Shown piece after piece: positions 27,049 to 40,495 of a stretch of DNA of 64,000 nt; the first letter of the stretch is position 1; every line of letters starts with the position of its first letter. Source of the DNA: Roseivivax isoporae LMG 25204. GTDB taxonomy: Bacteria > Pseudomonadota > Alphaproteobacteria > Rhodobacterales > Rhodobacteraceae. Under the pieces are notes generated by a model that was not told where the DNA came from, made no database searches, and saw only the letters and a program-made list of their open reading frames with translations. The stretch lies in contig NZ_JAME01000026.1 of assembly GCF_000521865.1 (NCBI RefSeq), positions 1-64,000 of the forward strand, read 5' to 3'. The position numbers and the translations under genes were made by a program.

Positions 27049-28482
27049 TCAGCCGATCCAGTTCGTCGTCTGAGCGAAGATCAGGAACGCGAGGGCGATG
27101 CAGATCCATGTCAGGAACAGGGGAAGGAAGAACCGGATCCAGCGGTCCCACCCCACCCCCGCGAGCGCGAGCGTCGCCATGAAGTAGCCCGAGGTCGGGT
27201 AGAAGATGTTCGAGAGACCGTCCCCCAGCTGGTAGGCCAGCACGGCGTTCTGCCGGGTCACGCCGATCAGGTCGGACAGCGGCGCCATGATCGGCATCGT
27301 GACCAGGGCCTGCCCGCTGCCCGAGGGGATGACGAAATTGAAGCCCAGCTGCGACAGGAACATGCCGACCGCCGCAAGCGTGTCCGGAAAGCTTCCCACG
27401 AGGTCGCCGAGGCCGTGGACGAGCGTGTCCATCACCTGGCCCTGCTCGAGCATCACGGCCACGGCGCGCGCGAGTCCCACGATGATCGCGCCCATGAGGA
27501 CATCACGGAAGCCCTCGTTGAAGGCCTCGCAGATCCGCGCCGTGCTCATCCCCGCGACGAGCCCCACGCCGACGCCCATCAGGACGAAGAGGCCGGCCAT
27601 CTCGAGCATGAACCACCCGCGGCTGAGCACGCCCCAGACCATGACCGCGAAGAAGGCAAGCGCGACGATCCCGGCCCAGGCCTGCCGCGTGGTGAACCGC
27701 ATCGGCGCGCCCGACAGATCGTGGCAGTACGACCTGCGCTTCTCCTCCTCGCGCGCGTCACCCGCCATCAGGCTCAGGTGCGGGTTTGTCCGGACGCGGC
27801 GCGCGTAGCGCGTGAGGTGCAGGATCGCGGCCGCGAGCAGCGCAACGAGGAGCACGGCCCGCAACCCGGCCCCGGAATAGAGAGGCAGCTCGGCGATGGA
27901 CTGGGCGAGCCCGGTATTGATCGGGTTGAGCACGCCGGCGGTGAACCCCGCCGTCGTCGCCAGCAGCGCCGTCGCCGCGGCGGTGATCGAGTCGAAACCG
28001 AGCGCGATCATCAACGGCAGGATCACCGGGACGTAGACCAGAGCAAGTTCCTGGGTCCCGATCAGGGAGGCTACGACGGCGAAGGTGGTCATCAGCACCG
28101 GCAGCATCAGCAGGCTGCGCGCGGCAAACCTGCGGCTGAGCTTGTCGACCGCCACGTCGATCAGGCCGGTGCGCCGGATCACCGTGAACATGCCGCCGAT
28201 GATGAACGTGAAGAACACCACGACCGCGGCATCGACCAGCCCGCTCGGCACCGCGAGCATGAACTCCTCGAGACCGACCGGGGTGGGCGCCACGCTCCGG
28301 TAGCTGTCGGGATCGATGGCGCTGCGCCCGTTCGGCAGCGTCACGCGGTCGTAGACCCCCGCAGGGATCACATGCGTCAGCGCCGCCGCGATCGCCGTGA
28401 ACACGAAGAGAATGACGTAGATGTGGGGCATGCGGAAGCCGCCCCCGGCCTCGTCGTCGACGTCGGTAATCTGGTCGGTCAT
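27049..28482 (-). CDS. YfcC/DcuC-family membrane carrier
   Basis: 477 residues with about 12 membrane segments. The signature regions of the YfcC branch of the C4-dicarboxylate carrier superfamily are present: PAGVYDR, GTQELALVYVPVILPLM, and NFVIPSGSGQALVTMPIMAPL (read as NFVIPSGSGQ plus ALVTMPIMAPL). The start at 28482 has GGGAGGA 8 bases upstream. Such carriers move carboxylates, amino acids or peptides using an ion gradient; the cargo is unknown. It stands alone, convergent with denD, and has a dyad-rich promoter region. Confidence 0.87.
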   Translation of the reverse strand: MTDQITDVDDEAGGGFRMPHIYVILFVFTAIAAALTHVIPAGVYDRVTLPNGRSAIDPDSYRSVAPTPVGLEEFMLAVPSGLVDAAVVVFFTFIIGGMFTVIRRTGLIDVAVDKLSRRFAARSLLMLPVLMTTFAVVASLIGTQELALVYVPVILPLMIALGFDSITAAATALLATTAGFTAGVLNPINTGLAQSIAELPLYSGAGLRAVLLVALLAAAILHLTRYARRVRTNPHLSLMAGDAREEEKRRSYCHDLSGAPMRFTTRQAWAGIVALAFFAVMVWGVLSRGWFMLEMAGLFVLMGVGVGLVAGMSTARICEAFNEGFRDVLMGAIIVGLARAVAVMLEQGQVMDTLVHGLGDLVGSFPDTLAAVGMFLSQLGFNFVIPSGSGQALVTMPIMAPLSDLIGVTRQNAVLAYQLGDGLSNIFYPTSGYFMATLALAGVGWDRWIRFFLPLFLTWICIALAFLIFAQTTNWIG

Positions 28483-28568
28483 GGCGTGGTCCTCCCTCTG
28501 CCGGCGCCCGGTCGCGGACCGTCCCGGGTCTCGTCCCTGTCGATCTAAAATGTTAGGTGCGATCTGAG

Positions 28569-28607
28569 CCAGAATTCTATTCTTGGTTTCAAAAGAAACT
28601 GTTCTGG
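28569..28607. promoter_or_regulatory. nested dyad upstream of the YfcC-type carrier gene
   Basis: An AT-rich island with outer arms CCAGAA/TTCTGG (28569-28574, 28602-28607) around GTTTC-aaaa-GAAAC (28586-28599). It is 87 bases or more upstream of the carrier ATG. Plausible operator/promoter; no linked regulator is adjacent. Confidence 0.4.
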
Positions 28608-28738
28608 AAATTTTGAAGGTCAGCGAAAATGCTGGCGTCATTGCAGAAATCCGGAACGCACCGGAGGCATCTGCCCGGCGCAGGCGCGGGTGCCACGCCT
28701 CGTTGCACGGCATCGGGTGCCGCGCCTGTCCGGTCCGG

Positions 28739-29122
28739 TCACGCGTCGGGACCGGGCCGATCCTGCGTGAACTGCACCATACCCTCGAAACGAGGCAGCC
28801 ACGCCTCTCGCCGACAGGTCCACAGCTCGTAGGTCGGCACGAACCGGTCCGGTTCGTCGAACGCACCCAGATGCACCTCGATCTCGTCGTCGCTGCGGGC
28901 AAAGATCGATGAGCCGCATGTCGGGCAGAAATACCGTCCCCGGTAGGCGCTCGGGTGGCCCGTGACGGTCACCGCATGCGCCGGAAAGACGGCCGCGGCA
29001 AAGAACGGGGCCCCGTGGTGTTTCCGGCACTCCATGCAGTGACAGATGCCCACCCGACGCGGATGCCCCGCGACGGTGACCCTCACGTCGCCGCAGAGGC
29101 ATCCTCCGCTTAGCCCGCTCAT
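28739..29122 (-). CDS. GFA-domain (Mss4-like) zinc protein
   Basis: 127 residues from the ATG with GGAGGGAGG just upstream. The zinc-binding cysteines match the glutathione-dependent formaldehyde-activating enzyme fold: C8-x-C10, C27-x-C29-x2-C32 and C66-x2-C69, with FFAAAVFPAHA and YELWTCRREAWLP around them. Most family members have no proven activity, and formaldehyde-glutathione adduct formation is documented only for some. No operon partner is visible: the next gene on this strand upstream is a remnant. Confidence 0.87.
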   Translation of the reverse strand: MSGLSGGCLCGDVRVTVAGHPRRVGICHCMECRKHHGAPFFAAAVFPAHAVTVTGHPSAYRGRYFCPTCGSSIFARSDDEIEVHLGAFDEPDRFVPTYELWTCRREAWLPRFEGMVQFTQDRPGPDA

Positions 29123-29156
29123 CGGCCTCCCTCCGCAAGTCGGCACGATGGGATCC

Positions 29157-29426
29157 TTAACCGCCTACGGCGCCTGCAAACAACATGGCGCTGGAGAGGG
29201 CCACGATGCCCATGCTCAGACGGTCGACCAGGAGCCTGTTCTGAGACCACCTGAAACGCTGCCCCAGAATGTCGCCCAGAAGCGTTCCCGGAACCATGCA
29301 GAGCGCGTGCTGCAGGGAAGCCCTGTCGACGGTCCCCCCGATGACGTGACCCCCGAGCGCGATCAGCGAAAGCAGCGAGGCCCGCATCTTCGAGGCCTTG
29401 GACGAGGAGCTCGCGAAAACCTTCAC
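29157..29426 (-). pseudogene. C-terminal remnant resembling a TauE/SafE sulfite-exporter family permease
   Basis: An 89-codon frame with two or three hydrophobic stretches. The order SLLSLIALGGHVIGG, then ALCMVPGTLLGDILGQRF, then LLVDRLSMGIVALSSAMLFAG resembles the last quarter of TauE/SafE permeases (G-LLG-x-x-LG-x-R-F is the recognisable part). A full-length member has about 250 residues, and no further TauE/SafE sequence precedes it: the upstream bases belong to the amidase gene on the other strand. A small independent membrane protein is the alternative. Confidence 0.45.
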
Positions 29427-29440
29427 CCTTGAGGCATCAG

Positions 29441-30664
29441 ATGGCTACGCGGACTGAGCTGTCGCGCGGCGCGGCTGAGCCGCAGGATCCCTCGACCGAG
29501 CGCCTCAAGGCCCGGGACGGCAAGATCAACGCGTTCGTGGAGGTGCTTTCGGTCCCCCGCCTGCGGTCGGGCGCCCTTTCGTACCTCAGGTTCGGGGTCA
29601 AGGAAGTCATCGAGCAGGAAGGGCTGGCCACGCCGCCGGGAATGCCTTTCCTGCGGGCCCGGCTCGGTCGCAAGAATGCGGCCATCGTCGATCGAGTCCA
29701 GTCGACGGGCGCGGCACGGGTCGGGACCACGCGATCCACGATGCTCGCCATCGCAGGCGACAGCGGCACACGAAACCCGCATGATCTCTGCAGGACACCG
29801 GGCGGTTCGTCCGCCGGGTCGGCCGCGGCCGTGGCCGCGGGCTTCATTGACTTCGCCCTCGGAACGCAGACGGTGGGCTCGATCATCCGGCCTGCGTCCT
29901 ATTGCGGTGTCGTCGGCTTCAAGCCGACATTCGACGCCCTGCCGACCCTCGGCGTCATGCGTCTGGCTGCCGAGCTCGACCATGTGGGCCTGATCGGGCG
30001 CGACGCCGGCGTGGTCGCGCGCGTGTTCGACCTCCTGTCGGGATCGGCAGGTCGCCGGGGCGCGTTCGCGGCGGCCTGGATGCCTCCGATCTGGTTTTCC
30101 GGCCACGTCCATCCGTCGGTCCGGCGCGTGCTCGAGGACGCGGCATCGAGGGTCCGGCAGCAGGGCATGGCGCTGCGGGACGACCCGTTGCCCGAAAACA
30201 TCCGGGTCGAGGAGGCGGACATCCTTCAGGGCCTGCTGTGCAAGGGCATCGTCGACAACCATCGCGCGCTCATCGAATCCCATGCCTCCCGCCTGCCGAG
30301 CGACCTCGTGGAGATGGCAAAGGCAGGCGCGCGCATTTCCGGGCCGGATCACCGCGCCCTCAGGCGGGCGCAGCGCCACCTCCAGACCATCATGTACGCG
30401 GCCGTCGCGGATGACACGGTCATCATCGTGCCGTCCGTCGTCGATGTCCCGCCGGTCCTCGGGCGGGGGACCGGGTCACGGGCCCCGCAACGGCTCTGGA
30501 CGCTCCTCGGCTGGCCAGCGGTCAGCCTCCCCCTCGGGACCTACGGAGGCGCGTTGGCGCATCTTCCGATGGGCGTCCAGATGATCGCGAAACCCGGGCG
30601 CGATGCCGCCTTGCTGGATTTCGCGCGCCATTTCGGAAACCCGAACGAAACAGCGCCCGTGTAA
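29441..30664 (+). CDS. amidase signature family hydrolase
   Basis: 407 residues from the ATG with GAGG 6 bases upstream. The Lys-Ser-Ser triad can be placed: K54 in FGVKEVI, cis-Ser 123/124 in GGSSAGS, and nucleophile S147 in TVGSIIRPAS, followed by YCGVVGFKPT. The usual LGTDTGGS is LGTQTVGS here, a mild variant. The chain is shorter than typical members (450-500), mostly in the N-terminal region. It hydrolyses an amide of unknown identity. It overlaps no partner and is followed by a 254-base gap with nothing I recognise. Confidence 0.85.
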   Translation: MATRTELSRGAAEPQDPSTERLKARDGKINAFVEVLSVPRLRSGALSYLRFGVKEVIEQEGLATPPGMPFLRARLGRKNAAIVDRVQSTGAARVGTTRSTMLAIAGDSGTRNPHDLCRTPGGSSAGSAAAVAAGFIDFALGTQTVGSIIRPASYCGVVGFKPTFDALPTLGVMRLAAELDHVGLIGRDAGVVARVFDLLSGSAGRRGAFAAAWMPPIWFSGHVHPSVRRVLEDAASRVRQQGMALRDDPLPENIRVEEADILQGLLCKGIVDNHRALIESHASRLPSDLVEMAKAGARISGPDHRALRRAQRHLQTIMYAAVADDTVIIVPSVVDVPPVLGRGTGSRAPQRLWTLLGWPAVSLPLGTYGGALAHLPMGVQMIAKPGRDAALLDFARHFGNPNETAPV

Positions 30665-30918
30665 CGGATGGGCTCCGTCCCAGGCCGCGGGCAGGCCATA
30701 TTTCGGCGGTCATCTTGCCGGTCGGCGCGCGGCTTCCCACTTCTTCCGTGCGGGTGAGGAGGACCCGCCGGCACGCATCTCATGCCGCAGCTGAGCTGAA
30801 AAGCACTGCCGAGGCGACCTTGGGTCCGACGTTGATCGAGGACCCGGACGCCGTGCCCGGGGTCCGGAGACGACCGGACCGGGCGTCACTGCTTCATGAC
30901 CTGACAATGGAGTTCGAG

Positions 30919-31047
30919 ATGGCCAAAGGTAAATCGAAACGCGGTCGAGAAGACAAGAAACCGAAGAAGGCGAAGGAGAAGGTCCTCGCGGCGGCCGACT
31001 CCGCCAAGGGAAAGACCGTGTCCGCCATGGTGGACAAGGGCAAGTAA
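30919..31047 (+). CDS. small lysine-rich protein
   Basis: 42 residues, about a third Lys/Arg, beginning MAKGKSKRGRE and rich in KKPKKAKEK. GGAG lies 6 bases before the chosen ATG. An ATG 12 bases earlier is possible but overlaps that site. Very small basic proteins starting MAKGK-KRGRE occur as uncharacterised proteins in alphaproteobacteria. Nucleic-acid binding is likely from charge alone. A terminator-like hairpin follows directly, so it is probably its own transcription unit. Confidence 0.65.
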   Translation: MAKGKSKRGREDKKPKKAKEKVLAAADSAKGKTVSAMVDKGK

Positions 31048-31058
31048 CCGGCTGCGAC

Positions 31059-31092
31059 GCGACCGGGTACCGGCCGTTCGGCGCCCGGTCGC
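31059..31092 (+). terminator. hairpin after the small lysine-rich gene
   Basis: Nine-base perfect arms GCGACCGGG and CCCGGTCGC around a 16-base loop begin 11 bases after the stop codon. No T tract. Confidence 0.5.
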
Positions 31093-31206
31093 ACGTCGGC
31101 AAGGGCTCCCCTCCGCCCGCCAGGCAACATCGTGCGGCCCGCAGCGGTTGCCCTCGGCCCTGTTCAGGGTACCCTGCCCCGAACGGATCAGCGAGGAACG
31201 CGCCAG

Positions 31207-31857
31207 ATGTCATCGGCTTCGAGAGGCGACAGGGAACAGTTCGACCTGAAAACCGGAACGACCGAGTCGGACGCCGTGTCCGGCTACTACGACGACTGGG
31301 CCCCGACCTACGACACGACGCTCAGGAGCTGGAACTACAGGGCCCCGGCGGACGCGGCCGCGCTGCTGGCCCCGCTCCTTGAGGACGGCTGCGCGGTCCT
31401 CGACGTCGGCTGCGGCACGGGGTTCTTCGGGTCCGCCCTGCAGCGGCGCGGGACCTTCACGATCATCGGCGCCGACATCTCGGAGGAATCCCTGAAGATC
31501 GCCGAGCAGACCGGCAGCTACGACCGCCTCATGGCGGTCGATCTCCAGAAGCTGCCGCTGCCGATTTCGGACAACGCCATGGATGCCGCGGCCTCCGTCG
31601 GCGTCCTGACCTATATCGAGGATGCCGAGGCGCTCCTGCGCGACCTCTGCCGGATCGTGAGGCCGGAGGGCGTGGTGAGCTTCACCCAGCGGACGGATCG
31701 CTGGGAGGCGCTCGGCTTCGGCACCGTGATCGAGAGGATGGCGCGGGATGGCGCCTGGACGGTTATCGAGATCACCGAGCCCAGGGCCTACCTGCCCGAG
31801 AACCCGGAGTTCGGAGACGACATCAGGGTGATCCACACGCTCTGCCGGGCGAACTGA
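31207..31857 (+). CDS. SAM-dependent class I methyltransferase
   Basis: 216 residues. Motif I is VLDVGCGTG (64-72), the acidic residue after strand 2 is in GADISEESL, then VGVLTYIEDAE and GVVSFTQRTD complete the Rossmann methyltransferase core. The N-terminus has YYDDWAPTYDTTL, common in small-molecule methyltransferases. GAGGA lies 9 bases before the ATG. Substrate unknown. It precedes the small coiled-coil gene and the peptide/kinase set on the same strand, but no direct link is proven. Confidence 0.87.
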   Translation: MSSASRGDREQFDLKTGTTESDAVSGYYDDWAPTYDTTLRSWNYRAPADAAALLAPLLEDGCAVLDVGCGTGFFGSALQRRGTFTIIGADISEESLKIAEQTGSYDRLMAVDLQKLPLPISDNAMDAAASVGVLTYIEDAEALLRDLCRIVRPEGVVSFTQRTDRWEALGFGTVIERMARDGAWTVIEITEPRAYLPENPEFGDDIRVIHTLCRAN

Positions 31858-31914
31858 GCGCGACGCTGCCCCGCCGGCCGCACCCCACGCACACGGACAC
31901 AGAAGGAGCCGTTC

Positions 31915-32103
31915 ATGAGCGAACGCGACGAGGATCTCGAGTTCTTCCGGGAGCAGCTCTACCAGGCCGAGGCCGAGAACGAACGCCTGGCGGGGATCCT
32001 GAGGGCCGCCCGGGACTTCATCGAGGACAAGTCCGGCCAAGACATGTCCGCACGCCACGTCGACCAGCTCCGGCACCTCCTGGCCGCGGCCCGGGAAACC
32101 TGA
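31915..32103 (+). CDS. small helical (coiled-coil) protein
   Basis: 62 residues, strongly charged, with heptad-like hydrophobic spacing in ERDEDLEFFREQLYQAEAE and a second helix over HVDQLRHLLAAARE. AAGGAG lies 6 bases before the ATG. No cysteine, signal or membrane segment. Probably an oligomerising or adaptor protein; no family recognised. It follows the methyltransferase by 57 bases and may share its transcript. Confidence 0.6.
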   Translation: MSERDEDLEFFREQLYQAEAENERLAGILRAARDFIEDKSGQDMSARHVDQLRHLLAAARET

Positions 32104-32327
32104 AGCCGGAGGGGTCCGAAACTGGGCCGCGGGAAGGGCGCAAGGCGCGCCGCGCGGCCTCGGCCGGACACGGCGCGCACCCGGCACCGCAGGCGCAAGG
32201 AGGCAGGTCGCGCGCACCATCATCTTAAGGCGTATGCGCTCTGCCCGAACTGCCGATTGCCTTGCGCGCGGAACGGTCGACAACTGGGGACAGCGCGAAG
32301 AGGTCGCGCTGTTTTGGGGTTTTCGAG

Positions 32328-32576
32328 ATGGAACCAACTCCCACTGACAAACAGCCTGACGACGACGAGCCGTCCTCACTCGAGAGACGCGATTTCATCA
32401 AGAAGAGCGGCCGTTTTGCCGCCGCTCCCGCCGTCGCCTTCCTCCTGTCGACCACGCTCGCGTCCGAGGCCGTGGCGCGGTCCGGCGGCGGCGCGACCCG
32501 GGGCGGCAAGAAGTCCAACGGCCGCGCACTGGGCAAGGTCATCACGGCCGTGAAGAAAGTGCTCGGCATCGCCTGA
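32328..32576 (+). CDS. exported cationic peptide with a Tat-type leader, candidate substrate of the adjacent kinase/nucleotidyltransferase
   Basis: 82 residues from the ATG at 32328. An acidic start (DDDE) is followed by a twin-arginine motif, E-R20-R21-D-F-I-K-K, a hydrophobic stretch (PAVAFLLSTTLAS) and a probable cleavage after A48-V49-A50. The remaining 32 residues are Gly/Lys/Arg-rich and end in an amphipathic helix-like ALGKVITAVKKVLGIA. Ser and Thr residues (S52, T57, S63, T73) could accept phosphate. The next gene, 47 bases on, is an HprK-like kinase, then a nucleotidyltransferase. The precursor role is my inference; small Tat proteins of other function are possible. The ribosome site is weak. 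Confidence 0.6.
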   Translation: MEPTPTDKQPDDDEPSSLERRDFIKKSGRFAAAPAVAFLLSTTLASEAVARSGGGATRGGKKSNGRALGKVITAVKKVLGIA

Positions 32577-32623
32577 CGGGCCCCCGGCCCGAGAGCGACG
32601 CCGGACCGCGACGGCCGGATGCG

Positions 32624-33763
32624 ATGCACATGACATTTGAACCAAGCGACCGGAACCACGTCCTGGTCGCGTGCGAGGGAACGCGTCTCGCATGCGTCGG
32701 AGGCACGGCGCTGCTTTTCGTGCCGGGGCGCGAGAGCCTGTTCGCGGCCTCGCCCCTCGTGGCCGACCTCTGGGATCGGCTGCAGGCCGGCATCCCGCTT
32801 GGTGACGTCGCCGCGGCCGCGCGGGCGTCCGGGGAGGACGCGTCACAAATGCTCGACGACCTTCTGCGGGCAGGCATCGTCGAGTACATCGCGCCGCGGG
32901 ACGGCCCCCGCGACGTGGCGTTCCGCATGCAGGTCGACCTCGGCGTCATCCGCGTCTGCGTCAACTTCCTTGGCACCGGCCACTTCCGGCCGCTCCGGGA
33001 CATGCTCGCCCCCCTCGAAGCCCCCGACCCCCGGCCGGGCAGGCAGCTCCTTGTGATCGGCGCGCCGCATCGGGTGGGGATCGCGCGCAATGGCGGCGAG
33101 ACCGACTGGGTCACCTGGAAAGAGGCCGCGCCCGCGCTGAAGATGGCGCTGACGGACATGGCGCTCGCGGCGGTCGACACCGTCGCGCTGCATGCCGCGA
33201 CGCTGTCACGACGGGACGAGGCCTTGCTGCTGGCGGGCGCACCGGGCGCGGGCAAGTCCACGCTTGCGGTCGCCCTCGGCGCCGCCGGCTTCCGGCTGGA
33301 CGGAGACGACGTCTGTTCCCTGCAGACGGACGGACGGGTCAGGGCGCTGCCCTTTCCCGCCACGGTCAAGCAGGGCGCGTGGGCCATTCTCGCACCGCAC
33401 CGTCCGGACGTGGCCGGCTGTCCCGCGTTCACGCGGCCCGACGGCCAGCGCGTGCGCTATCTCGCGCTCACCCGTGGCACGCCGGAGGCGCGGCGGGTCC
33501 GGACCGTGCTCTGCCTCGACAGGACCGACCGGTGCCCCCCGCGGATGACGCCGCTCGGGGTCGCGGACGCGATAGCGACCCTGCTGAACGGCGCCTGGTC
33601 CACCGACCGCAAGCTGTCGCCGCACGCCTTTGATGCGCTCATGGCCTGCGTCGCGGGGGCCCGGTTCTACCGGATGACCTATCGCACGCTCGACGACGCC
33701 ATGGCCATGATCGACACGGCCTGGCCACTGATGCCCCGCGACCGGCTCGCCGCGACGGGATGA
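32624..33763 (+). CDS. PqqD-like domain fused to an HPr kinase-like domain
   Basis: 379 residues. Residues about 10-90 (VLVACEGTRLACVGGTALLFV, then ASPLVADLWDRLQAG and LDDLLRAGIVEYI) follow the PqqD/RRE winged-helix pattern used for peptide recognition. Residues 190-300 are HprK-like: H190AA, Walker A GAPGAGKST (205-213), then GFRLDGDDV with paired Asp, and PFPATVK. HPr itself is not encoded here. In lasso-peptide clusters related kinases phosphorylate a C-terminal Ser of the precursor. The gene overlaps the nucleotidyltransferase by ATGA. ATGs at 32624 and 32630 are equally possible starts. Confidence 0.82.
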   Translation: MHMTFEPSDRNHVLVACEGTRLACVGGTALLFVPGRESLFAASPLVADLWDRLQAGIPLGDVAAAARASGEDASQMLDDLLRAGIVEYIAPRDGPRDVAFRMQVDLGVIRVCVNFLGTGHFRPLRDMLAPLEAPDPRPGRQLLVIGAPHRVGIARNGGETDWVTWKEAAPALKMALTDMALAAVDTVALHAATLSRRDEALLLAGAPGAGKSTLAVALGAAGFRLDGDDVCSLQTDGRVRALPFPATVKQGAWAILAPHRPDVAGCPAFTRPDGQRVRYLALTRGTPEARRVRTVLCLDRTDRCPPRMTPLGVADAIATLLNGAWSTDRKLSPHAFDALMACVAGARFYRMTYRTLDDAMAMIDTAWPLMPRDRLAATG

Positions 33764-34785
33764 CCGCCATGCGCATGGAGGGGCGACGACTCGACACGAC
33801 GCTCCGGCATCTTGGCGGCTGCCTCAGGGGCGCGCCGCTGCCGGGCATCGACTGGCCCCGGCTCGTCGCCCTTGCGGATGCGCATTTCCTCGGCCCCCGC
33901 CTCCATCGTGCGCTCGCGCAGGGCGGACAGGCGCAGGGTCAGGACCGCGAGGCTTTGGACTACCTCGAGACCCTCGACGCGCTGAACGGCGCACGCAACC
34001 GCCGCCTGTCGGCGCAGCTCGGCGAGCTGGTGGATGCCCTGCAGTCCCGCGGCATCGTGCCGACGATCCTCAAGGGCGGTGCCCACCTGGCGCGGTGCCT
34101 TGGCCGCGACACGCTCCCGTCGCGGATGATGCGGGACCTCGACCTCCTGATCCGTGCAGACCAGGGCGAGGATGCCGCGCGCGTCCTGCGCGCCTGCGGC
34201 TACGACCGGTTCGCCGAGGATCCGGGCCCGCATTCCATGGGGTGCTATTTCCGTCCGTCTGATGTCGGCGCGGTCGACATGCACGTGTCCCTGCCGCCCC
34301 TCGTCGCGCGGCTCGTCCCGCCCGGGGAGATGGCGCGACGGACGACAGCGATCCGCGCCGGATCGCGCGTCCTGACCGTGCCGGATGCAAGCCTGCAATT
34401 CGTCATCAATCTCGGCCACGAGATGGCGCATGACGAGGCCCTGGTCAGCGGCTTCGTCGACCTGCGGTACCTGCTCGAGCTCATCGACCTCGCCCGCGAT
34501 GGGGCCGGTGACCTCGACTGGGACTGGATCCGCGCGACCTCCGGCGGGTGGAAACTGTCCCTCGGACTCGAGGTGCAGGACCGGATGGCGCGCCACCTCG
34601 GCTTTGCCGGCTTTCCCGGGATCGGCCGCACGGCCATGGGCCGTCTCCTGCACGAACGCCGGCTGTTCAAGATGGCCCATCGCAGGATCGGCCAAGCCGA
34701 ATGGCGCGTGATACGCCACGTGAACCGCCTGCGCCATTCGGTGGCGCGCCATCACCGCCCAACACCTCTTCAGTCGAGGGTCTGA
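33760..34785 (+). CDS. nucleotidyltransferase family protein (NTP_transf_5-like)
   Basis: 341 residues. The central part has VPTILKGGAHLARCLG followed by RMMRDLDLLIRADQ, the K-G and D-x-D pattern of the large uncharacterised nucleotidyltransferase family often paired with HprK-like kinases, asparagine synthases or lasso-peptide genes. A helical C-terminal region with NLGHEMAHDEAL and RYLLELIDL follows. Translationally coupled to the kinase (ATGA). It may add nucleotides or extend phosphate on a product first phosphorylated by the kinase; this is inference from analogous peptide clusters. Confidence 0.82.
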   Translation: MTAMRMEGRRLDTTLRHLGGCLRGAPLPGIDWPRLVALADAHFLGPRLHRALAQGGQAQGQDREALDYLETLDALNGARNRRLSAQLGELVDALQSRGIVPTILKGGAHLARCLGRDTLPSRMMRDLDLLIRADQGEDAARVLRACGYDRFAEDPGPHSMGCYFRPSDVGAVDMHVSLPPLVARLVPPGEMARRTTAIRAGSRVLTVPDASLQFVINLGHEMAHDEALVSGFVDLRYLLELIDLARDGAGDLDWDWIRATSGGWKLSLGLEVQDRMARHLGFAGFPGIGRTAMGRLLHERRLFKMAHRRIGQAEWRVIRHVNRLRHSVARHHRPTPLQSRV

Positions 34786-34833
34786 GGGGCGCGAACGTGC
34801 CGCTACCGGGTCGGGACGCGCCGCTGGCGGTAC

Positions 34834-35490
34834 TCAGGTGCGGGCGCCTTCGGACATCAGGAAATCGATGAACCTGTCGCCGTCCTGGACGTGCCGCGCC
34901 ATCAGCGCCGACGCGGCGGCGCCATCGCCGTCGCGGAGCGCCGCGAGGATGTCCGCGTGTTCGCGATGGGATCGGCGCAGGCGGTCCATCTTCTCGATGA
35001 GCCAGCGCCTGTAGGGGGCGAGGCGCAGACGCAGCGTCGAAAGCTGGGCTTCGAGGTAGGTGTTGTGGGCCCCGGCCCAGATCGCCTGGTGGAATTCCAG
35101 GTTCAGCACGGCATAGGCGTCGGGATCGCCATCCTCGACCGTCCTGGCGATCTTCTCGTGCAGGGCTTCCAACGCGGAGAGGTCGGCATCGCCCATGCGC
35201 CGCGCGGCGAGGTCGCAAGCGATGGCCTCGAGGCTGGCAAGCACCTCGAACATCTGTGCCAGCTGCTTGATGTCGAGTGCCGAGACGACCGAGGTCTGCC
35301 GCGGCCGCATGGCGACCAGCCCGACCGAGGCAAGCTGTGTCAGCGCCTGGCGGACCGGCGTGCGCGACACCTCGAACCGTGCCGCGATCTTGCGCTCGTC
35401 GAGTTCATCCCCCGGCTGCAACCGGCCCGCGAGGATTTCCTCCTCGAGCGCGGCGCGCAGGCGGTCGGCCATCGTCTTGGTGTCGGTCAT
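34834..35490 (-). CDS. GntR-family regulator (FCD type) of the TRAP/AMDase operon
   Basis: 218 residues from the ATG at 35490. A GTG two codons upstream is an alternative. The winged helix spans about 8-70 (RFEVSRTPVRQALTQLASVGLV), and the FCD domain has the ligand region EFHQAIWAGAHN and RSHREHADILAAL with conserved Asp/His positions. It is divergent from the TRAP operon, and the dyad TTGGGTATACCAAA lies between them at 35559-35572, the usual shape of FCD-regulator sites. The inducer is probably the imported carboxylate. Confidence 0.9.
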   Translation of the reverse strand: MTDTKTMADRLRAALEEEILAGRLQPGDELDERKIAARFEVSRTPVRQALTQLASVGLVAMRPRQTSVVSALDIKQLAQMFEVLASLEAIACDLAARRMGDADLSALEALHEKIARTVEDGDPDAYAVLNLEFHQAIWAGAHNTYLEAQLSTLRLRLAPYRRWLIEKMDRLRRSHREHADILAALRDGDGAAASALMARHVQDGDRFIDFLMSEGART

Positions 35491-35551
35491 CGTCACTCGC
35501 CAGCTCGTTCACCCGCGCCAGAATAGGACACGCCAGCGGGAAATGCCAGAT

Positions 35552-35581
35552 TGACTCTTGGGTATACCAAAGCCTAGCCTC
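35552..35581 (+). promoter_or_regulatory. TRAP-operon promoter with embedded GntR operator
   Basis: TTGACT (35552-35557) and TAGCCT (35576-35581), 18 bases apart, could be the -35 and -10 boxes. The imperfect dyad TTGGGTATACCAAA (35559-35572, core GGTATACC) lies between them, so a bound regulator would block polymerase. Confidence 0.6.
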
Positions 35582-35631
35582 GGTACATCAACAACAAGAA
35601 ATCCGAAGCTCCTGACCAACGGGGAATGACC

Positions 35632-36609
35632 ATGAGACGATTCTTCATCACCGTGGCGGCGCTCTGCGTCGGCACCGCCGTCTCCGCCGAGACATTGCGG
35701 CTGAGCCACTCCTACACCGAGGACGACACCCGCCATCGCTGGGCCGAGAAGATCGCCGAGCTCGTGGACGAGAAGACCGACGGCGCGGTGACGGTCGAGA
35801 TCTTTCCCAACCAGCAGCTCTTCAAGGCGCGCGAGCAGTACAACGGCCTGGTTCAGAACCGCATCGACCTGGCCATCTATCCGCTGCCCTGGCTGTCGGG
35901 ACGCGCACCGCTGGCCGAGATCGGCGCCTTGCCCGGCGTCGTCTCGGAACCGGCCGACGGTCTCGAATGGCGCAGCCGCGAGATCTGGCCGATGCTGCAG
36001 GAGGCGGTGGCGGAAACCGGCGTGACGCTGGCGGGCGGCGGCTTCGCGATGGGCACGATCGGGAATACCGGAGAGCCGATCCTCCTGCCCGAGGACATGG
36101 ACGGCCACAAGATGCGCGGCCTCGGCCGGGCGACAGAGGCGATGATGATGGCAAACGGCGCCACGATCACGTCGCTTCCGGCATCCGAAATCTATCAGGC
36201 GCTGCAGACCGGCGTCCTGTCGGGCGTGCTGACCATCTACAGCTCGTTCGAGGGCTACAACCTTCAGGAAGTCGTCGACCACATGCTGATCGGCAAGGGT
36301 TTCGTCGGCGCGATGCACGGACTTCTGGCCGCGCCCGGCCTCGAGGACAAGATCGGGACGGAGCACTACGAGGCCGTGCTGTCGGCGGTCGAGGAGTCCG
36401 AGGCCTGGTTCGTCGAGGCCGCCGCGGCCGAGCAGGCCGACATCGCCGCCGCGTTCGAGGCGGCCGGCGTGACCGTCCATCGGCTCGACGACGACCAGGC
36501 CGCGGCCTGGCAGGCCGACGCCGAGGACAACGCCTGGAGCTATTTCCGCGAGAACGTGCCGAACGGCGACGCGGCGCTCGAGGCGTTGACCACACCGCTG
36601 TCGAACTGA
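35632..36609 (+). CDS. TRAP transporter solute-binding protein (DctP family)
   Basis: 325 residues with a signal peptide (FFITVAALCVGTAVSA). The mature start, LRLSHSYTEDDTRHRWAEKI, the NQQLFKAREQYNGLVQNRIDLAIY region (read as NQQLFKAREQYNG and IDLAIY) and MRGLGRATEAMMMANGA match the DctP fold, in which a conserved Arg binds the substrate carboxylate. GGGGA is 6 bases before the ATG chosen; an ATG two codons earlier would overlap it. It should bind a carboxylic acid for the enolase-family and arylmalonate-decarboxylase enzymes downstream. Confidence 0.88.
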   Translation: MRRFFITVAALCVGTAVSAETLRLSHSYTEDDTRHRWAEKIAELVDEKTDGAVTVEIFPNQQLFKAREQYNGLVQNRIDLAIYPLPWLSGRAPLAEIGALPGVVSEPADGLEWRSREIWPMLQEAVAETGVTLAGGGFAMGTIGNTGEPILLPEDMDGHKMRGLGRATEAMMMANGATITSLPASEIYQALQTGVLSGVLTIYSSFEGYNLQEVVDHMLIGKGFVGAMHGLLAAPGLEDKIGTEHYEAVLSAVEESEAWFVEAAAAEQADIAAAFEAAGVTVHRLDDDQAAAWQADAEDNAWSYFRENVPNGDAALEALTTPLSN

Positions 36610-36613
36610 GCGA

Positions 36614-36635
36614 CAGGCGCACCGGGCGGTGCCTG
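36614..36635 (+). terminator. hairpin between the TRAP binding-protein and small-permease genes
   Basis: GCACC-gggc-GGTGC core extended imperfectly by CAGG/CCTG, five bases after the dctP stop. Probably a partial terminator giving excess binding protein. Confidence 0.4.
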
Positions 36636-36685
36636 ATCCGCGCCGCCCGGACGCCCAACTTCCCGAACAGGACGGACCTATCCGG

Positions 36686-37216
36686 ATGACCGGCCTTCTT
36701 CTGACGCTTCGCCGCGTGACCGACATCGCCGCCCGCACCGGCGCCGTGATCTCCGCAGGCGCGATCCTCTTCGCCTGCATCGCCATCTCCTGGGCAGTCC
36801 TCGCCCGCGGGATCGTCGGCATGAACACGATCTGGGAACTCGAGGCAGGCGTCTACCTGCTGATCTACGCGGCCTTCCTGTCGGCAGGCTTTGCCCATCG
36901 CGACGGCGGGCAGATCGCCGTCGACATGCTGCGCGAGCGGCTCACGGGGCGTGCCCGCATCGTGCATCGCGGGCTGCTCGACGCGGTGGCGCTGGCGCTC
37001 TTCGTCCTGCTGGCGGTGTCTGGCTGGCACATGACCGCCGGCGCGTGGGAAACCGGCTGGCGGTCCGAGACGCTGTGGGGGCCGCCGCTCTGGCTTCCCT
37101 ATCTCGCGGTCCCGCTGGGCAGCGTCCTGATCTCGTTCTGCCTGGCGGTCGACATCGCGCTGCGGCTGGCCGGCGTGCCGGTTCCGCAGGACCACGTGCT
37201 GCAGGAGGCGCATTGA
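36686..37216 (+). CDS. TRAP transporter small permease (DctQ family)
   Basis: 176 residues with four membrane segments: ISAGAILFACIAISWAVLA, then VYLLIYAAFLSAGFAHR, LLDAVALALFVLLAVSGW and YLAVPLGSVLISFCLAVDIA. The loop RDGGQIAVDML is typical for DctQ proteins. The ATG at 36686 gives the normal family start; an open frame continues upstream without a ribosome site. One base separates its stop from the large-permease ATG, so the two membrane subunits are coupled. Confidence 0.88.
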   Translation: MTGLLLTLRRVTDIAARTGAVISAGAILFACIAISWAVLARGIVGMNTIWELEAGVYLLIYAAFLSAGFAHRDGGQIAVDMLRERLTGRARIVHRGLLDAVALALFVLLAVSGWHMTAGAWETGWRSETLWGPPLWLPYLAVPLGSVLISFCLAVDIALRLAGVPVPQDHVLQEAH

Positions 37217-37217
37217 C

Positions 37218-38522
37218 ATGACCCCCGCCCTCTTCGGCCTGCTGGCCTTCGGCCTGCTCCTGCTGCTGATCTTCGCCGGCCTGCCAATCGCCTACGCGCT
37301 GGCCGCGACGGTCCTGATCCTGATGACGTTCACGGGCGAGCTCGGCCAGGCGATCTACATCGCCGACGCGGCGTTTTCCTCGCTCAACTCCATCGAACTC
37401 GTGGCCCTGCCCATGTTCATCTTCATGGGCGCGATCGTCGCGGTCAGCCCCGCGGGAGCGGACATCTATCGCACGCTGAACCGCATCCTGCCGGTGCCCG
37501 GCGGCCTCGGCGTGTCGACGATCGGCGGCTCGGCCCTGTTCTCGGCCCTGTCGGGGTCGTCCCCCGCCACGGTGGCAGCCATCGGGTCCTCCGGGGTGCC
37601 GGAAATGCTCGCGCGGCGCTATCCGCCGGCGCTGGCCTGCGGCATCGTCGTCGGCGGCGGCACGCTCGGCATCCTCATCCCACCGTCGATCGTGTTGCTG
37701 CTCTACGGGATCGTCACCAAGACCTCGATCGGGCAGCTCTTCCTGGCGGGGCTCCTGCCCGGGCTCATGGTCGCGGGGCTCTTCGCCGCCTACACGATCT
37801 GGCGCATGTCCCGAGAGGTGCGGCACAATCCCGCGATCGCCCCCACCGCCGAGGAGATCATGAGCGATCGCGCCGCGCGCTGGAGGGTTCTTCCGTTCTT
37901 CGCGATGATGGCGCTGATCATGATCGCGCTCTACGGCGGATGGGCCACCCCGTCCGAGATCGCGGCGGTGGGCGCCACCGCGTCGATCCTGCTGGTCCTC
38001 GTCGTCTACCGCATCACCGATCGCCGCACCTGGTCCCGGCTTCTGCTCAAGACCGTGCGCGACACCTCGATGATCCTGCTGATCGCGACCTTCTCGTACT
38101 ATTTCGCCCAGTTCCTGTCGTTCCACGGGGTCGTGTCGGACGTGACGGAAACCCTGCTCGGCGCCTTCGGCAACAAGTGGGTGACGCTGTTCGCCCTCTG
38201 GGTGGTGATGCTGATCCTCGGCTGCTTCCTGCCGCCCTTCGCCATCGTCGTCATCACCGCGCCGATGTTCCTGCCCTTCGCGCTGGAAGCGGGGTTCGAC
38301 CCGGTCTGGTTCGGCGTCTTCATCACCCTCAACATGGAGATCGGCTGCATCACGCCGCCGCTTGGCATCAACCTGTTCGTGGTGAAGTCCATCGCGCCGG
38401 AGGTGCCGATGGGACAGATCATGAAGGGCTCCGTGCCCTTCATCGCCATCCTCGCCCTGTCCTCGCTCCTGCTCGTGCTGTTTCCCGGGATCGCGCTGCT
38501 GATCCCGCATTCGATGATGTGA
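37218..38522 (+). CDS. TRAP transporter large permease (DctM family)
   Basis: 434 residues, about 12 membrane segments. Family blocks include ELVALPMFIFMGAIVA, STIGGSALFSALSGSSPATVAAIGS (read as STIGGSALFSALSG and SSPATVAAIGS), GTLGILIPPSIVLLLYG and the C-terminal TPPLGINLFVVKSIAP. It forms the ion-coupled channel with DctQ. Sodium-driven uptake of a carboxylate delivered by the DctP protein is expected. The stop is 12 bases before the enolase-superfamily gene. Confidence 0.92.
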   Translation: MTPALFGLLAFGLLLLLIFAGLPIAYALAATVLILMTFTGELGQAIYIADAAFSSLNSIELVALPMFIFMGAIVAVSPAGADIYRTLNRILPVPGGLGVSTIGGSALFSALSGSSPATVAAIGSSGVPEMLARRYPPALACGIVVGGGTLGILIPPSIVLLLYGIVTKTSIGQLFLAGLLPGLMVAGLFAAYTIWRMSREVRHNPAIAPTAEEIMSDRAARWRVLPFFAMMALIMIALYGGWATPSEIAAVGATASILLVLVVYRITDRRTWSRLLLKTVRDTSMILLIATFSYYFAQFLSFHGVVSDVTETLLGAFGNKWVTLFALWVVMLILGCFLPPFAIVVITAPMFLPFALEAGFDPVWFGVFITLNMEIGCITPPLGINLFVVKSIAPEVPMGQIMKGSVPFIAILALSSLLLVLFPGIALLIPHSMM

Positions 38523-38534
38523 TCCGGAGATTCC

Positions 38535-39716
38535 ATGCCCCGAGACCTTTCGCCAAAGACCACTGCCATCGCCCGCGTCAGCGCGACGCCCGTCAACGTC
38601 CCTGTCCGGCTCGAGATCGCGGGCGCGGTACGCGAGACGGGCCTCTCCGCCGTGATCGTCGAGGTCGAGACCGAGGACGGGCTCGTGGGACACGGCTTCA
38701 CCGCGATCACCGAGGAGGAGGCGGTCGCCCCGATCGTGACCGAACTGATCGCGCCGGCCATCGTCGGCGCGGACGCGCTCGCGACAGAGGCGATCTGGGA
38801 CAGGCTCTACTGGCTGCTGACCCCGCGCGGCCAATCGGGCTATGCCAGCCACGCCATCGCCGCCGTCGACCTCGCGCTGTGGGACATCAGGGGGCGGGCG
38901 CTCGGGCTGCCGGTCTGGCGTCTCCTGGGCGGCGCGCGCGACAGCGTGCCGCTCTACGCGACCTGCGGCTTTCCGTTCCTCGACCGCGATCAGCTCGTCG
39001 CCTCGGCGCGGTCCTGCGTCGCGCAGGGCTTCGAGCGGGTGAAGATGACGGTCGCGGCCGAGGCGCTCGCACGGCGGGATGCGCCGCGCGACATCATGGC
39101 GCTCCTGCGCGAGGACGCGGCGCGGGTCCGCGCCGTGCGCGAGGCGGTGGGGCCGGACGTCATGCTGTTCATCGACGCGAACTGCAATCTCGACCCGTTC
39201 CATGCCGCGAAGCTGGCCGAGATGGTCGCCGAGGCCCGCGTCGACCTCTTCGAGGAGCCGATAGCGGGCAACGACGCGGCCGCCATGGCCGACCTGCGCC
39301 GCCGCACCGGCCTGAGCCTGTCGGCCGGCCAGAACGAGGGTCAGGCGTTCCGCTTCCGCGACCTGCTGAGCGCCGGCGCGGTGGATCTCGTGCAGCCCAA
39401 CGTGGCCATCACCGGCGGGATCACGCAATGTCTCAAGATCGCCGGGCTCGCGCATGGTTTCGGGGTGCCGATCGCGAATGGCGGTGCGTGGCCGTTCCAC
39501 AACATGCACCTGCAGGCCGGGGTCACCAACGGAACGCTCGTGGAATGGCACCTGCCTGCGGTCGCGCTGTGCCGGACGCTGTTCCGCGGCCTTCCCGAGC
39601 CGGAGGCGGGGCGCCTTCGATTGCCGGACACGCCCGGTCTGGGGTTCGACCTCGATCAAGACGCGGTGCGGGACTGCGCGGCGCGCCCATCGGCCCGCGG
39701 CCGGGGAAAGGGATGA
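38535..39716 (+). CDS. enolase-superfamily enzyme (mandelate racemase/muconate lactonizing type)
   Basis: 393 residues. The N-terminal capping domain is followed by the barrel with metal ligands D214 (FIDANCN), E240 (FEEP) and E268 (GQNEG). K170 in RVKMTV is the first Lys position, but the usual second basic residue two places on is Thr, so the common KxK pair is incomplete. H322 and H325 lie in FHNMHLQAG near the second-base position. It abstracts an alpha proton from a carboxylate, acting as racemase or dehydratase. Its stop overlaps the arylmalonate decarboxylase start (ATGA), so both probably act on the same chiral acid. Confidence 0.85.
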   Translation: MPRDLSPKTTAIARVSATPVNVPVRLEIAGAVRETGLSAVIVEVETEDGLVGHGFTAITEEEAVAPIVTELIAPAIVGADALATEAIWDRLYWLLTPRGQSGYASHAIAAVDLALWDIRGRALGLPVWRLLGGARDSVPLYATCGFPFLDRDQLVASARSCVAQGFERVKMTVAAEALARRDAPRDIMALLREDAARVRAVREAVGPDVMLFIDANCNLDPFHAAKLAEMVAEARVDLFEEPIAGNDAAAMADLRRRTGLSLSAGQNEGQAFRFRDLLSAGAVDLVQPNVAITGGITQCLKIAGLAHGFGVPIANGGAWPFHNMHLQAGVTNGTLVEWHLPAVALCRTLFRGLPEPEAGRLRLPDTPGLGFDLDQDAVRDCAARPSARGRGKG

Positions 39717-40495
39717 CGGCGATGACCAAGGCGACAGAGGGCACCAGGAAGGTGGGCCTGATCGTTCCCCCCGCGCGCGGCGACGTCCCGCCCGAGCCGC
39801 CGCAACTCTACCCGGAGATCGCGTTCGACGCGATCGGTCTCGGGCTCGATCGCATGACGCCGCAGGGCTACGACGGGGTCATCGAACGTGTCGAAAGCGC
39901 TGCGGTCACGCTCGCGGAGCGCGGGGCCGACGCTGTCGTCCTCATGGGCACGTCGCTGAGCTTCTACCGCGGGTCCGAGTTCAACGACCGGCTTGTCGCG
40001 GCGATGGGAACGGCGACCGGGCTTCCGGCCAGCACCATGACGACGGCGGTGATCGAGGCTCTCGGACAGCTGTCCGCGCGACGCATCGCGGTTGCCACGG
40101 CATACGGCGCCGAGGTGAACGCGCGGCTGTCGGCCTATCTGCGGGCGTCCGGCCTCGAGATCGCCGCGCTCGACTGCCTCGACATCACCGACGTGGACGA
40201 TGTCCTGCGCGTCACGCCGCAGGACATCGTCGAACTCGGCGTGCGGACGGCGGCGCACGCCCCCGACGCAGATGCGCTGTTCATCTCGTGCGGCGGCCTG
40301 CAGACGCTCGACGTGACTGCGCCGATCGAAGACCGAGGCGGCCTGCCCGTCATCTCCTCGGCCGTGGCCGGCGCGTGGAAATGCGCGCGGCTCGTCGGTC
40401 ATCCAGGGATCGCGGACGGCTACGGGACCTTCCTCGCCGGACAGGGCCGCCACGGCGGCGCGCGCACCCCTGGCGAGAGAGCCGCGTCAGAGTGA
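39713..40495 (+). CDS. arylmalonate decarboxylase-like protein (Asp/Glu racemase superfamily)
   Basis: 260 residues with close agreement to Bordetella arylmalonate decarboxylase: GLIVPPARGDVPPEPPQLYP near 15-34, GLGLDRMTPQGYD, VLMGTSLSFYRGSEFN (77-91), RRIAVATAY and ISCGGLQTLD (191-200). The catalytic cysteine is C193 and the paired position is G79, equivalent to C188 and G74 of the known enzyme, i.e. the one-cysteine decarboxylase form rather than a two-cysteine racemase. It needs no cofactor and decarboxylates 2-substituted malonates to chiral acids. The start was set at the ATGA overlap; an ATG 9 bases later is possible. Confidence 0.88.
   Translation: MTAMTKATEGTRKVGLIVPPARGDVPPEPPQLYPEIAFDAIGLGLDRMTPQGYDGVIERVESAAVTLAERGADAVVLMGTSLSFYRGSEFNDRLVAAMGTATGLPASTMTTAVIEALGQLSARRIAVATAYGAEVNARLSAYLRASGLEIAALDCLDITDVDDVLRVTPQDIVELGVRTAAHAPDADALFISCGGLQTLDVTAPIEDRGGLPVISSAVAGAWKCARLVGHPGIADGYGTFLAGQGRHGGARTPGERAASE

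Follow-up and report, generated by a model that had tools for sequence, protein, structure and literature searches.

The closest described relatives of the system considered here are the linear polyphosphorylated peptides (LPPs) of Bacillota, whose clusters, in the available portion of the report by Popov et al. (May 2026; PMC13381572), combine a precursor with an HprK-like kinase, a discrete RiPP recognition element (RRE; RiPP, ribosomally synthesized and post-translationally modified peptide), a SipW-like peptidase, an exporter and a nucleoside triphosphate (NTP) transferase. According to the same text, the kinase LppK phosphorylates Ser3 of the core, the S3A substitution abolishes phosphorylation, and LPPs are reported near capsule loci and called restricted to Bacillota (PMC13381572). 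Lasso-peptide kinases are characterized by a His-Lys-Asp-Asp motif, and the addition of hexoses to phosphoserine needs PsmN, as given in the available part of PMC9266682. Here we describe a locus at positions 32328-34785 of a 64,000-nucleotide stretch of Roseivivax isoporae LMG 25204 (contig NZ_JAME01000026.1, positions 1 to 64,000, forward strand), referred to as a whole as the window. Its three same-strand genes encode a small protein with a twin-arginine leader, a 379-residue HprK-like kinase with a PqqD/RRE-like N-terminus and a 341-residue nucleotidyltransferase. We put at roughly 65% the probability that this trio makes a small secreted peptide that is phosphorylated, decorated with a second group and exported by twin-arginine translocation (Tat).

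Conservation of the three genes

The precursor, kinase and nucleotidyltransferase are conserved together across many Pseudomonadota, and held-out and co-occurrence tests place this gene combination far beyond chance. Fifty-nine loci, named below by L numbers, were gathered in successive sets (the window plus 24, 14 and 20); some come from one genome or genus and are not independent, and those from short contigs or the ends of contigs (e.g., L032, L035, L036 and L037) stay in the counts, misses included. A first leader profile, built from 16 seeds of the first locus set, was tested on later loci, none of which had been used as seeds. It found a leader at E 0.011 or better in 10 of 14 loci (L075 reached 0.32 and L074 3.6, with no match in L077 and L080) and at 0.018 or better in 18 of 20 (none in L128 and L140). 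Among 17 control stretches (179 kb, from kinase-bearing genomes), a single leader match was obtained, an ordinary Tat protein at 0.0053. At a threshold of E 0.1, an enlarged profile placed a leader no more than about 3.2 kb from the kinase in 50 of the 59 loci, a partly circular count, as 30 of the profile seeds come from the same loci. The small gene lies on the opposite strand in several loci (e.g., L030, L031, L033 and L132), and a nucleotidyltransferase is present in 49.

This linkage is further strengthened by a sample of 390 genomes of the order, taken as the same sample in the kinase and leader searches, in which strong leaders (E 1e-9) occur in 12 of 15 kinase-positive genomes versus 0 of 375 kinase-negative ones (Fisher 2e-20). 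The positive side of this comparison is partly circular because 9 of the 12 genomes supplied query members, while the empty negative side is not. Weak leader matches (E 8.2e-7 to 8.8e-6) were obtained in ten more genomes, two of them kinase-positive. The sequence-only reading had asked whether the small Tat-leader protein stands next to the kinase in other genomes, and by these measures it travels with the kinase.

The distribution is patchy. A single-sequence kinase search (E 1e-15 for the family) found 1 of 9 genomes in the genus and 3 of 295 in the family, the window's own included, and kinase profile searches found 21 of 385 in a class sample (E 1e-12), 15 of 390 in the order and 82 of 398 in a phylum sample (both E 1e-20). 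Many of the 82 phylum matches cover the kinase part only; 20 phylum loci were read for a precursor, with 18 positive. Among named plasmids, 26 records matched, and each of the five loci read from them (one duplicating L069) has a precursor; Sinorhizobium meliloti pSymB and Leisingera plasmids are among the named relatives. In Leisingera aquaemixtae, the precursor (L152, 3686-3898) is annotated as hypothetical protein WP_082649584.1, and the gene table of L. caerulea (L151), itself incomplete, shows no precursor entry. L005, the only locus from a related-locus search of genome contigs, was discarded as a ParA-like chance match by sequence.

A twin-arginine leader joined to a variable tail

The precursor gene (32328-32576, plus strand, stop included) encodes 82 residues and matches the leader profile at E 2.3e-16, the window being one of that profile's seeds. 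Its leader (residues 1-50; 32328-32477) reads ERRDFIKKSGRFAAAPAVAFLLST and comprises the ERRDFIKK motif, a hydrophobic stretch and, at residues 48-50, AVA, a predicted signal peptidase I site. The twin arginines R20 and R21 (codons at 32385-32390) and G28 are each conserved in at least 90% of 24 precursors, and among 33 aligned precursors, retrieved with a profile itself containing RR, the first position is arginine in 32 and the second in all 33. Against the NCBIfam Tat-signal model TIGR01409, the window precursor scores 21.2 bits (cut-off 16.7). By eye, many precursors have an AxA-like site after the hydrophobic stretch, and the window's genome encodes TatC. A scan of the 24 precursors against NCBIfam and Pfam gave few matches at E 0.01, all to Tat-type models apart from two single matches to other families. 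The window's genome holds one strong precursor copy (leader profile 1.6e-21), its sole other match being at 0.009.

The leader would thus appear to double as a Tat-type signal that sends the peptide through the general Tat route. A twin-arginine motif, a hydrophobic stretch and an AxA site are all present in the window precursor, and its passage through TatC is a prediction from these features. This would explain a cluster that lacks both a dedicated protease and a dedicated exporter, because a Tat-type leader would use the general Tat route and signal peptidase I. The sequence-only reading had described the small protein as exported folded: the Tat-type leader and AVA are borne out, TatC is encoded and export is predicted from these features, but folding before export finds no support in short tails of mostly low-complexity sequence.

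Tandem and multi-precursor loci reveal an architecture of constant leader and variable core. The two precursors of L076 have identical leaders (31 of 31 residues) and share 1 of 8 tail residues, and the tandem precursors of L052 (3480-3710 and 3933-4151) agree at 27 of 33 leader positions and 1 of 4 aligned tail positions, their net tail charges being +12 (RGRRGRR) and -18 (DDDEYDDD). The three precursors of L059 share 18-20 of 30 leader residues and 6/21, 7/18 and 10/39 tail residues. Between the window and L051, 20 of 31 aligned leader residues from RR on and 11 of 24 tail residues are alike. Tails across the precursors are Lys/Arg-rich, Gly/His-rich, acidic or Pro/Ser-rich. The 32-residue tail of the window precursor (32478-32573) has a net charge of +8, and its last 20 residues have a helical hydrophobic moment of 0.54 versus a shuffle mean of 0.28, a value reached by 1.7% of shuffles, in agreement with the amphipathic C-terminal helix proposed earlier.

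Two further observations concern the tails. A motif close to NNG[YF]GNG..DG.PG.S recurs by eye in L029, L030, L033, L155 and L159, across leader subtypes, and may represent a second functional site. An orphan precursor with the same leader type (L159, 3044-3334, genome G905) has its kinase on another contig, adjoins a gene that by eye resembles infB (initiation factor 2) and carries NGWGNGNDCVPGNSW in its tail.

A conserved serine after the predicted cleavage site

Just past the cleavage site, 24 of 33 precursors have Ser in one aligned column. The 33 were picked from 57 after inspection and belong mainly to the fused-kinase branch, a choice that lessens the weight of the count as support for a phosphorylated peptide. 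The 24 omitted were 17 precursors of unfused loci, the L130 pair (which nearly duplicates L129), L032 (truncated by a contig end), L078, L079, L081 and L138. In mature positions 1-4, Ser likewise occurs in 24 of the 33, versus a shuffle mean of 10.3 and maximum of 21 (0 of 5000 shuffles reach 24). Because the rule-based cleavage-site picker misplaces some sites (e.g., in L051 and L133), the aligned column is the safer number. All six members of the window subclade (the window, L051 and L069-L072) carry RSGG, extended to RSGGG in the window, and the five named plasmid loci, of which L153 duplicates L069, read KSGG, KSGG, RSGG, KSCG and KSGG.

These observations point to Ser52 (32481-32483), the second residue past AVA, as the candidate phosphate acceptor. 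The broader suggestion of the sequence-only reading, modification at Ser or Thr of the tail, is therefore narrowed to one conserved serine, with the modification itself a prediction and one precursor of L052 standing apart, as described below. Related kinases in L078, L079 and L081 lie in loci that lack a nucleotidyltransferase, and the precursor tails there are Ser-rich (PSEPSAP, SGGSGG).

Kinase, PqqD-like domain and nucleotidyltransferase

The fusion kinase (32624-33763, plus strand) matches TIGR04352 HprK_rel_A over residues 179-364 (33158-33715) at E 1.9e-20, a family matched by all 12 aligned kinases, the window's included (best 8.8e-32). The nucleotidyltransferase (33760-34785, plus strand), whose start overlaps the kinase stop in an ATGA, matches PF14907 in Pfam at E 6.5e-25, and both enzyme identities first proposed from the sequence hold. 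The predicted catalytic motifs of the two enzymes are intact: H190, K211 and D228, which we equate with the lasso-kinase His-Lys-Asp-Asp motif, are invariant in the 12 kinases, and the KG...R...DxD motif of the nucleotidyltransferase (K105, G106, R122, D126 and D128, with D126-L-D128 at 34135-34143) is kept in all 11 aligned.

The putative PqqD/RRE-like domain occupies about residues 14-94 of the kinase (32663-32905). PF05402 (PqqD) is matched at E 0.1 or better by 9 of the 12 aligned kinases (best 2.4e-10); among five other kinases, L129, L131 and L059 match with E values no higher than 0.002, L133 with 0.18 and L076 not at all; and all six of a second set of N-termini match (best 2.4e-11). 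In hhalign, the N-terminal profile of the window kinase and five near relatives aligns with that of six PqqD-positive N-termini at probability 93.7 (E 2e-7), and on these grounds the N-terminus is read as PqqD/RRE-like but diverged in the window's branch. The domain claimed in the sequence-only reading is thus recovered by profile comparison, although not by a direct Pfam match in the window kinase. Single-sequence AlphaFold2 models gave no usable structure (mean pLDDT 35.4 for the kinase and 46.1 for the N-terminal domain). In L048 (3360-5651, genome G533), a single reading frame joins nucleotidyltransferase and kinase-like parts, has no recognizable P-loop and has no precursor found near it; this is perhaps a degenerate form.

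Proposed pathway and alternative explanations

In the proposed pathway, the PqqD-like domain fused to the kinase would hold the 82-residue precursor by its leader in the cytoplasm while the HprK-like domain phosphorylates Ser52, just past the cleavage site. The nucleotidyltransferase would then add a second group onto the phosphate, either a nucleotide or a hexose (the group reported for pseudomycoidin), after which the modified peptide would be exported by Tat and cut after AVA by signal peptidase I. The variable tail, here cationic, would have an extracellular function, perhaps on the cell surface or its polysaccharide, any surface role being a guess. Linkage and co-occurrence support the peptide-modification interpretation put forward by the earlier reading; the substrate relation, the phosphorylation site, the second modification, Tat export and the outside role are what we infer from sequence comparison.

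Several observations weigh against this pathway. The window kinase scores 73.1 bits against TIGR04352, whose curated cut-off is 200, and Pfam gave no PF05402 match in it or in the five nearest relatives scanned (L051 and L069-L072). The enlarged profile finds no leader in 9 of the 59 loci (L034, L035, L037, L048, L050, L080, L128, L140 and L147, the last recovered by the first profile at 0.003), 10 of the 59 are without a nucleotidyltransferase, and eight of the 375 kinase-negative genomes give weak leader matches in the range stated above. The contrast between leader and tail is less sharp in the L129 pair (leaders 27/33, tails 12/23 alike) and between L070 and L071, whose tails are also alike (16/26, leader 34/35). 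With respect to the acceptor, the second L052 tail has neither Ser nor Thr (Tyr stands at +2) and that of L137 has Thr without Ser; in the LPP system, the S3T and S3Y variants of LppA were not phosphorylated and the NTP transferase LppN was inactive in the heterologous host, according to the available text (PMC13381572).

Other explanations differ mainly in the fate of the peptide or in the substrate of the enzymes. The same modification could act on a peptide whose leader is a Sec signal or an uncleaved membrane anchor, leaving it embedded in the inner membrane or attached to it. Of 24 precursors scanned, that of the window alone reaches E 0.01 with TIGR01409, and because of this Tat export stays a proposal for the other precursors; cleavage-site residues are poor in several relatives (AIT in L051, a longer stretch before RSGG in L069-L072), and short low-complexity tails are unusual as Tat cargo. 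We nevertheless consider this arrangement unlikely in view of the nearly invariant arginine pair, even allowing for the RR in the search profile, the score of the window precursor above the TIGR01409 cut-off, the AxA-like sites and the presence of TatC. It is quite unlikely, in our estimate, that the enzymes act on another molecule, such as a surface polysaccharide or lipid-linked sugar, with the small protein as their partner or as an accompanying structural protein. Polysaccharide genes (Wzz, Poly_export, Bac_transf, glycosyltransferase and RfbA-like) lie near 21 of the 59 loci versus 0 of the 17 controls, with probes drawn from the test loci themselves, a polysaccharide export gene adjoins two Leisingera plasmid loci, and the L052 tail without Ser and Thr fits such a role. 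Against it stand the PqqD-type peptide-binding domain fused to or encoded beside the kinase, the conserved leaders and divergent tails of L076 and L052, and the 38 loci, including the window's (stretch 27601-40000), in which the scan found no such gene. A consistent pairing with polysaccharide clusters lacking any small peptide, which the sequence-only reading had named as a refuting case, was not seen, the small protein being present in 18 of the 21 polysaccharide-near loci.

A toxin-immunity arrangement, in which a membrane-active cationic tail is inactivated in the cytoplasm by the two enzymes, would suit the +8 amphipathic tail of the window precursor and a spread as patchy as that of conflict genes (1 of 9 genus and 3 of 295 family genomes by single-sequence search). 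We regard it as highly improbable: PADLOC gives the kinase weak P-loop matches only and the precursor and nucleotidyltransferase none, and the tails have no common toxic property because others are acidic (down to -18), Gly/His-rich or Pro/Ser-rich. A chance neighborhood, with an unrelated Tat protein beside the kinase, is scarcely credible. Tat signals are common, as the one control stretch of 17 with a Tat protein and the eight kinase-negative genomes with weak matches illustrate, but the held-out tests and the genome co-occurrence contradict it.

Genomic neighborhood

By Pfam scan, the trio is flanked by a class I methyltransferase (31204-31857), a 62-residue protein without a family (31915-32103) and a GntR regulator (34834-35496), and the translations further downstream seem to belong to a TRAP (tripartite ATP-independent periplasmic) transporter and catabolic genes. 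Among the three flanking proteins scanned, no cyclase, protease, SipW-like peptidase or MsbA-like exporter was found, in line with the absence of cyclase, protease and exporter asserted earlier, and all three members of the trio were confirmed where they had been placed, including the ATGA overlap and the leader and tail features of the small protein. The upstream methyltransferase was weighed as a possible fourth gene of the system but rejected, as it falls outside the neighbor groups listed as common to at least three loci.

Relation to known systems

The enzymes resemble those of the NCBIfam "HPr-rel-A system" (TIGR04352 and TIGR04353) in kinase family, PqqD-like domain and adjacent nucleotidyltransferase. 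In relatives with unfused genes, both kinases scanned score above the TIGR04352 cut-off (292 and 395.5 bits), all four PqqD proteins scanned exceed that of TIGR04353 ("HPr-rel-A system PqqD family peptide chaperone"), a separate PqqD-like protein lies between the small protein and the kinase in many loci (by eye, 19 listed), and a Tat-like small protein is encoded upstream. The window system differs in its fused PqqD-like domain and in a kinase score below the family cut-off, which leave it outside the formal models; no window protein matches TIGR04353, and 3 of 12 fused kinases match it weakly. Four scanned precursors of unfused loci match no NCBIfam family. These enzymes are, as far as we found, named in databases but unexplained, although NCBIfam comments may already mention a substrate. 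Asparagine synthase-like genes, recalling lasso cyclases, lie by eye near the unfused loci L139, L141 and L144.

The clusters of the lasso peptides paeninodin and pseudomycoidin have a PqqD-type B1 protein, a counterpart to the PqqD-like domain of the window kinase. They also share with the window a tailoring kinase with His-Lys-Asp-Asp and a nucleotidyltransferase acting on the phosphorylated peptide, whereas their acceptor is a C-terminal Ser and the window precursor ends in GIA (PMC9266682, available in part). A lasso peptide was rejected, the neighbors scanned including neither a macrolactam cyclase nor a B2 protease and the precursor lacking a C-terminal Ser, as was a SynChlorMet cassette, whose ScmC kinase model gives 18 bits against a cut-off of 125. 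Bufferins and lipoprotein-type peptides of the MNIO (multinuclear non-heme iron-dependent oxidase) family are likewise modified peptides with an N-terminal signal and generic export, differing in that iron-dependent oxidases modify them and that the available text describes lipoprotein-type signals without mentioning Tat (PMC12636315). The terms kinase, HPr and nucleotidyltransferase have no matches in the available portions of the RRE-Finder paper (PMC7470986) and of PMC12710340. In the open-licence literature, among the matches listed, we found no paper that joins PqqD, HprK and a nucleotidyltransferase with a Tat leader or that names a Tat-leader precursor. The earlier description of an uncharacterized system accordingly stands for the Tat-leader precursor, but less so for the enzymes, whose relatives bear HPr-rel-A labels and which have kindred published from Bacillota (PMC13381572, available in part).

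The wider proposition, a large Pseudomonadota RiPP class in which the Tat signal itself is the RRE-read leader and a Ser beside the cleavage site is decorated by kinase and nucleotidyltransferase in the cytoplasm before passage through Tat and signal peptidase I, is in our judgment evenly poised. If true, the precursor would be the substrate of the HPr-rel-A enzymes, providing a concrete candidate substrate and acceptor residue for a kinase/nucleotidyltransferase pair named in databases, and phosphopeptide RiPPs would extend beyond Bacillota. Use of a general export signal as a RiPP leader would explain clusters seemingly without protease and exporter, which mining keyed to such genes may miss. 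The relatives on Sinorhizobium meliloti pSymB and Leisingera plasmids open the system to testing in ordinary bacteria.

The strongest likeness is to LPPs, in which, as far as the available text describes them, an HprK-like kinase, an RRE/PqqD domain and an NTP transferase also stand beside one to three precursors with a conserved N-terminus and variable C-terminus, the acceptor Ser lies near the start of the core (here a conserved Ser only), no cyclase is needed, and a patchy spread often accompanies nearby polysaccharide loci (PMC13381572). The same text also brings out differences: the LPP leader reads YxxPxVLxHQ..., a motif not found in the twin-arginine leader ERRDFIKKSGRFAAAPAVAFLLST; the RRE is a discrete protein, not one end of a fusion kinase; LPP clusters carry genes for a SipW-like peptidase and an MsbA-like exporter, neither of which was found among the window neighbors scanned; and the hosts are Bacillota, not Pseudomonadota (PMC13381572). 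The window system is LPP-like in its working but lies outside the LPP definition in leader motif, discrete RRE, peptidase and exporter, and we read it as a probable divergent, fused branch of the NCBIfam HPr-rel-A system and the proteobacterial counterpart of the LPPs.

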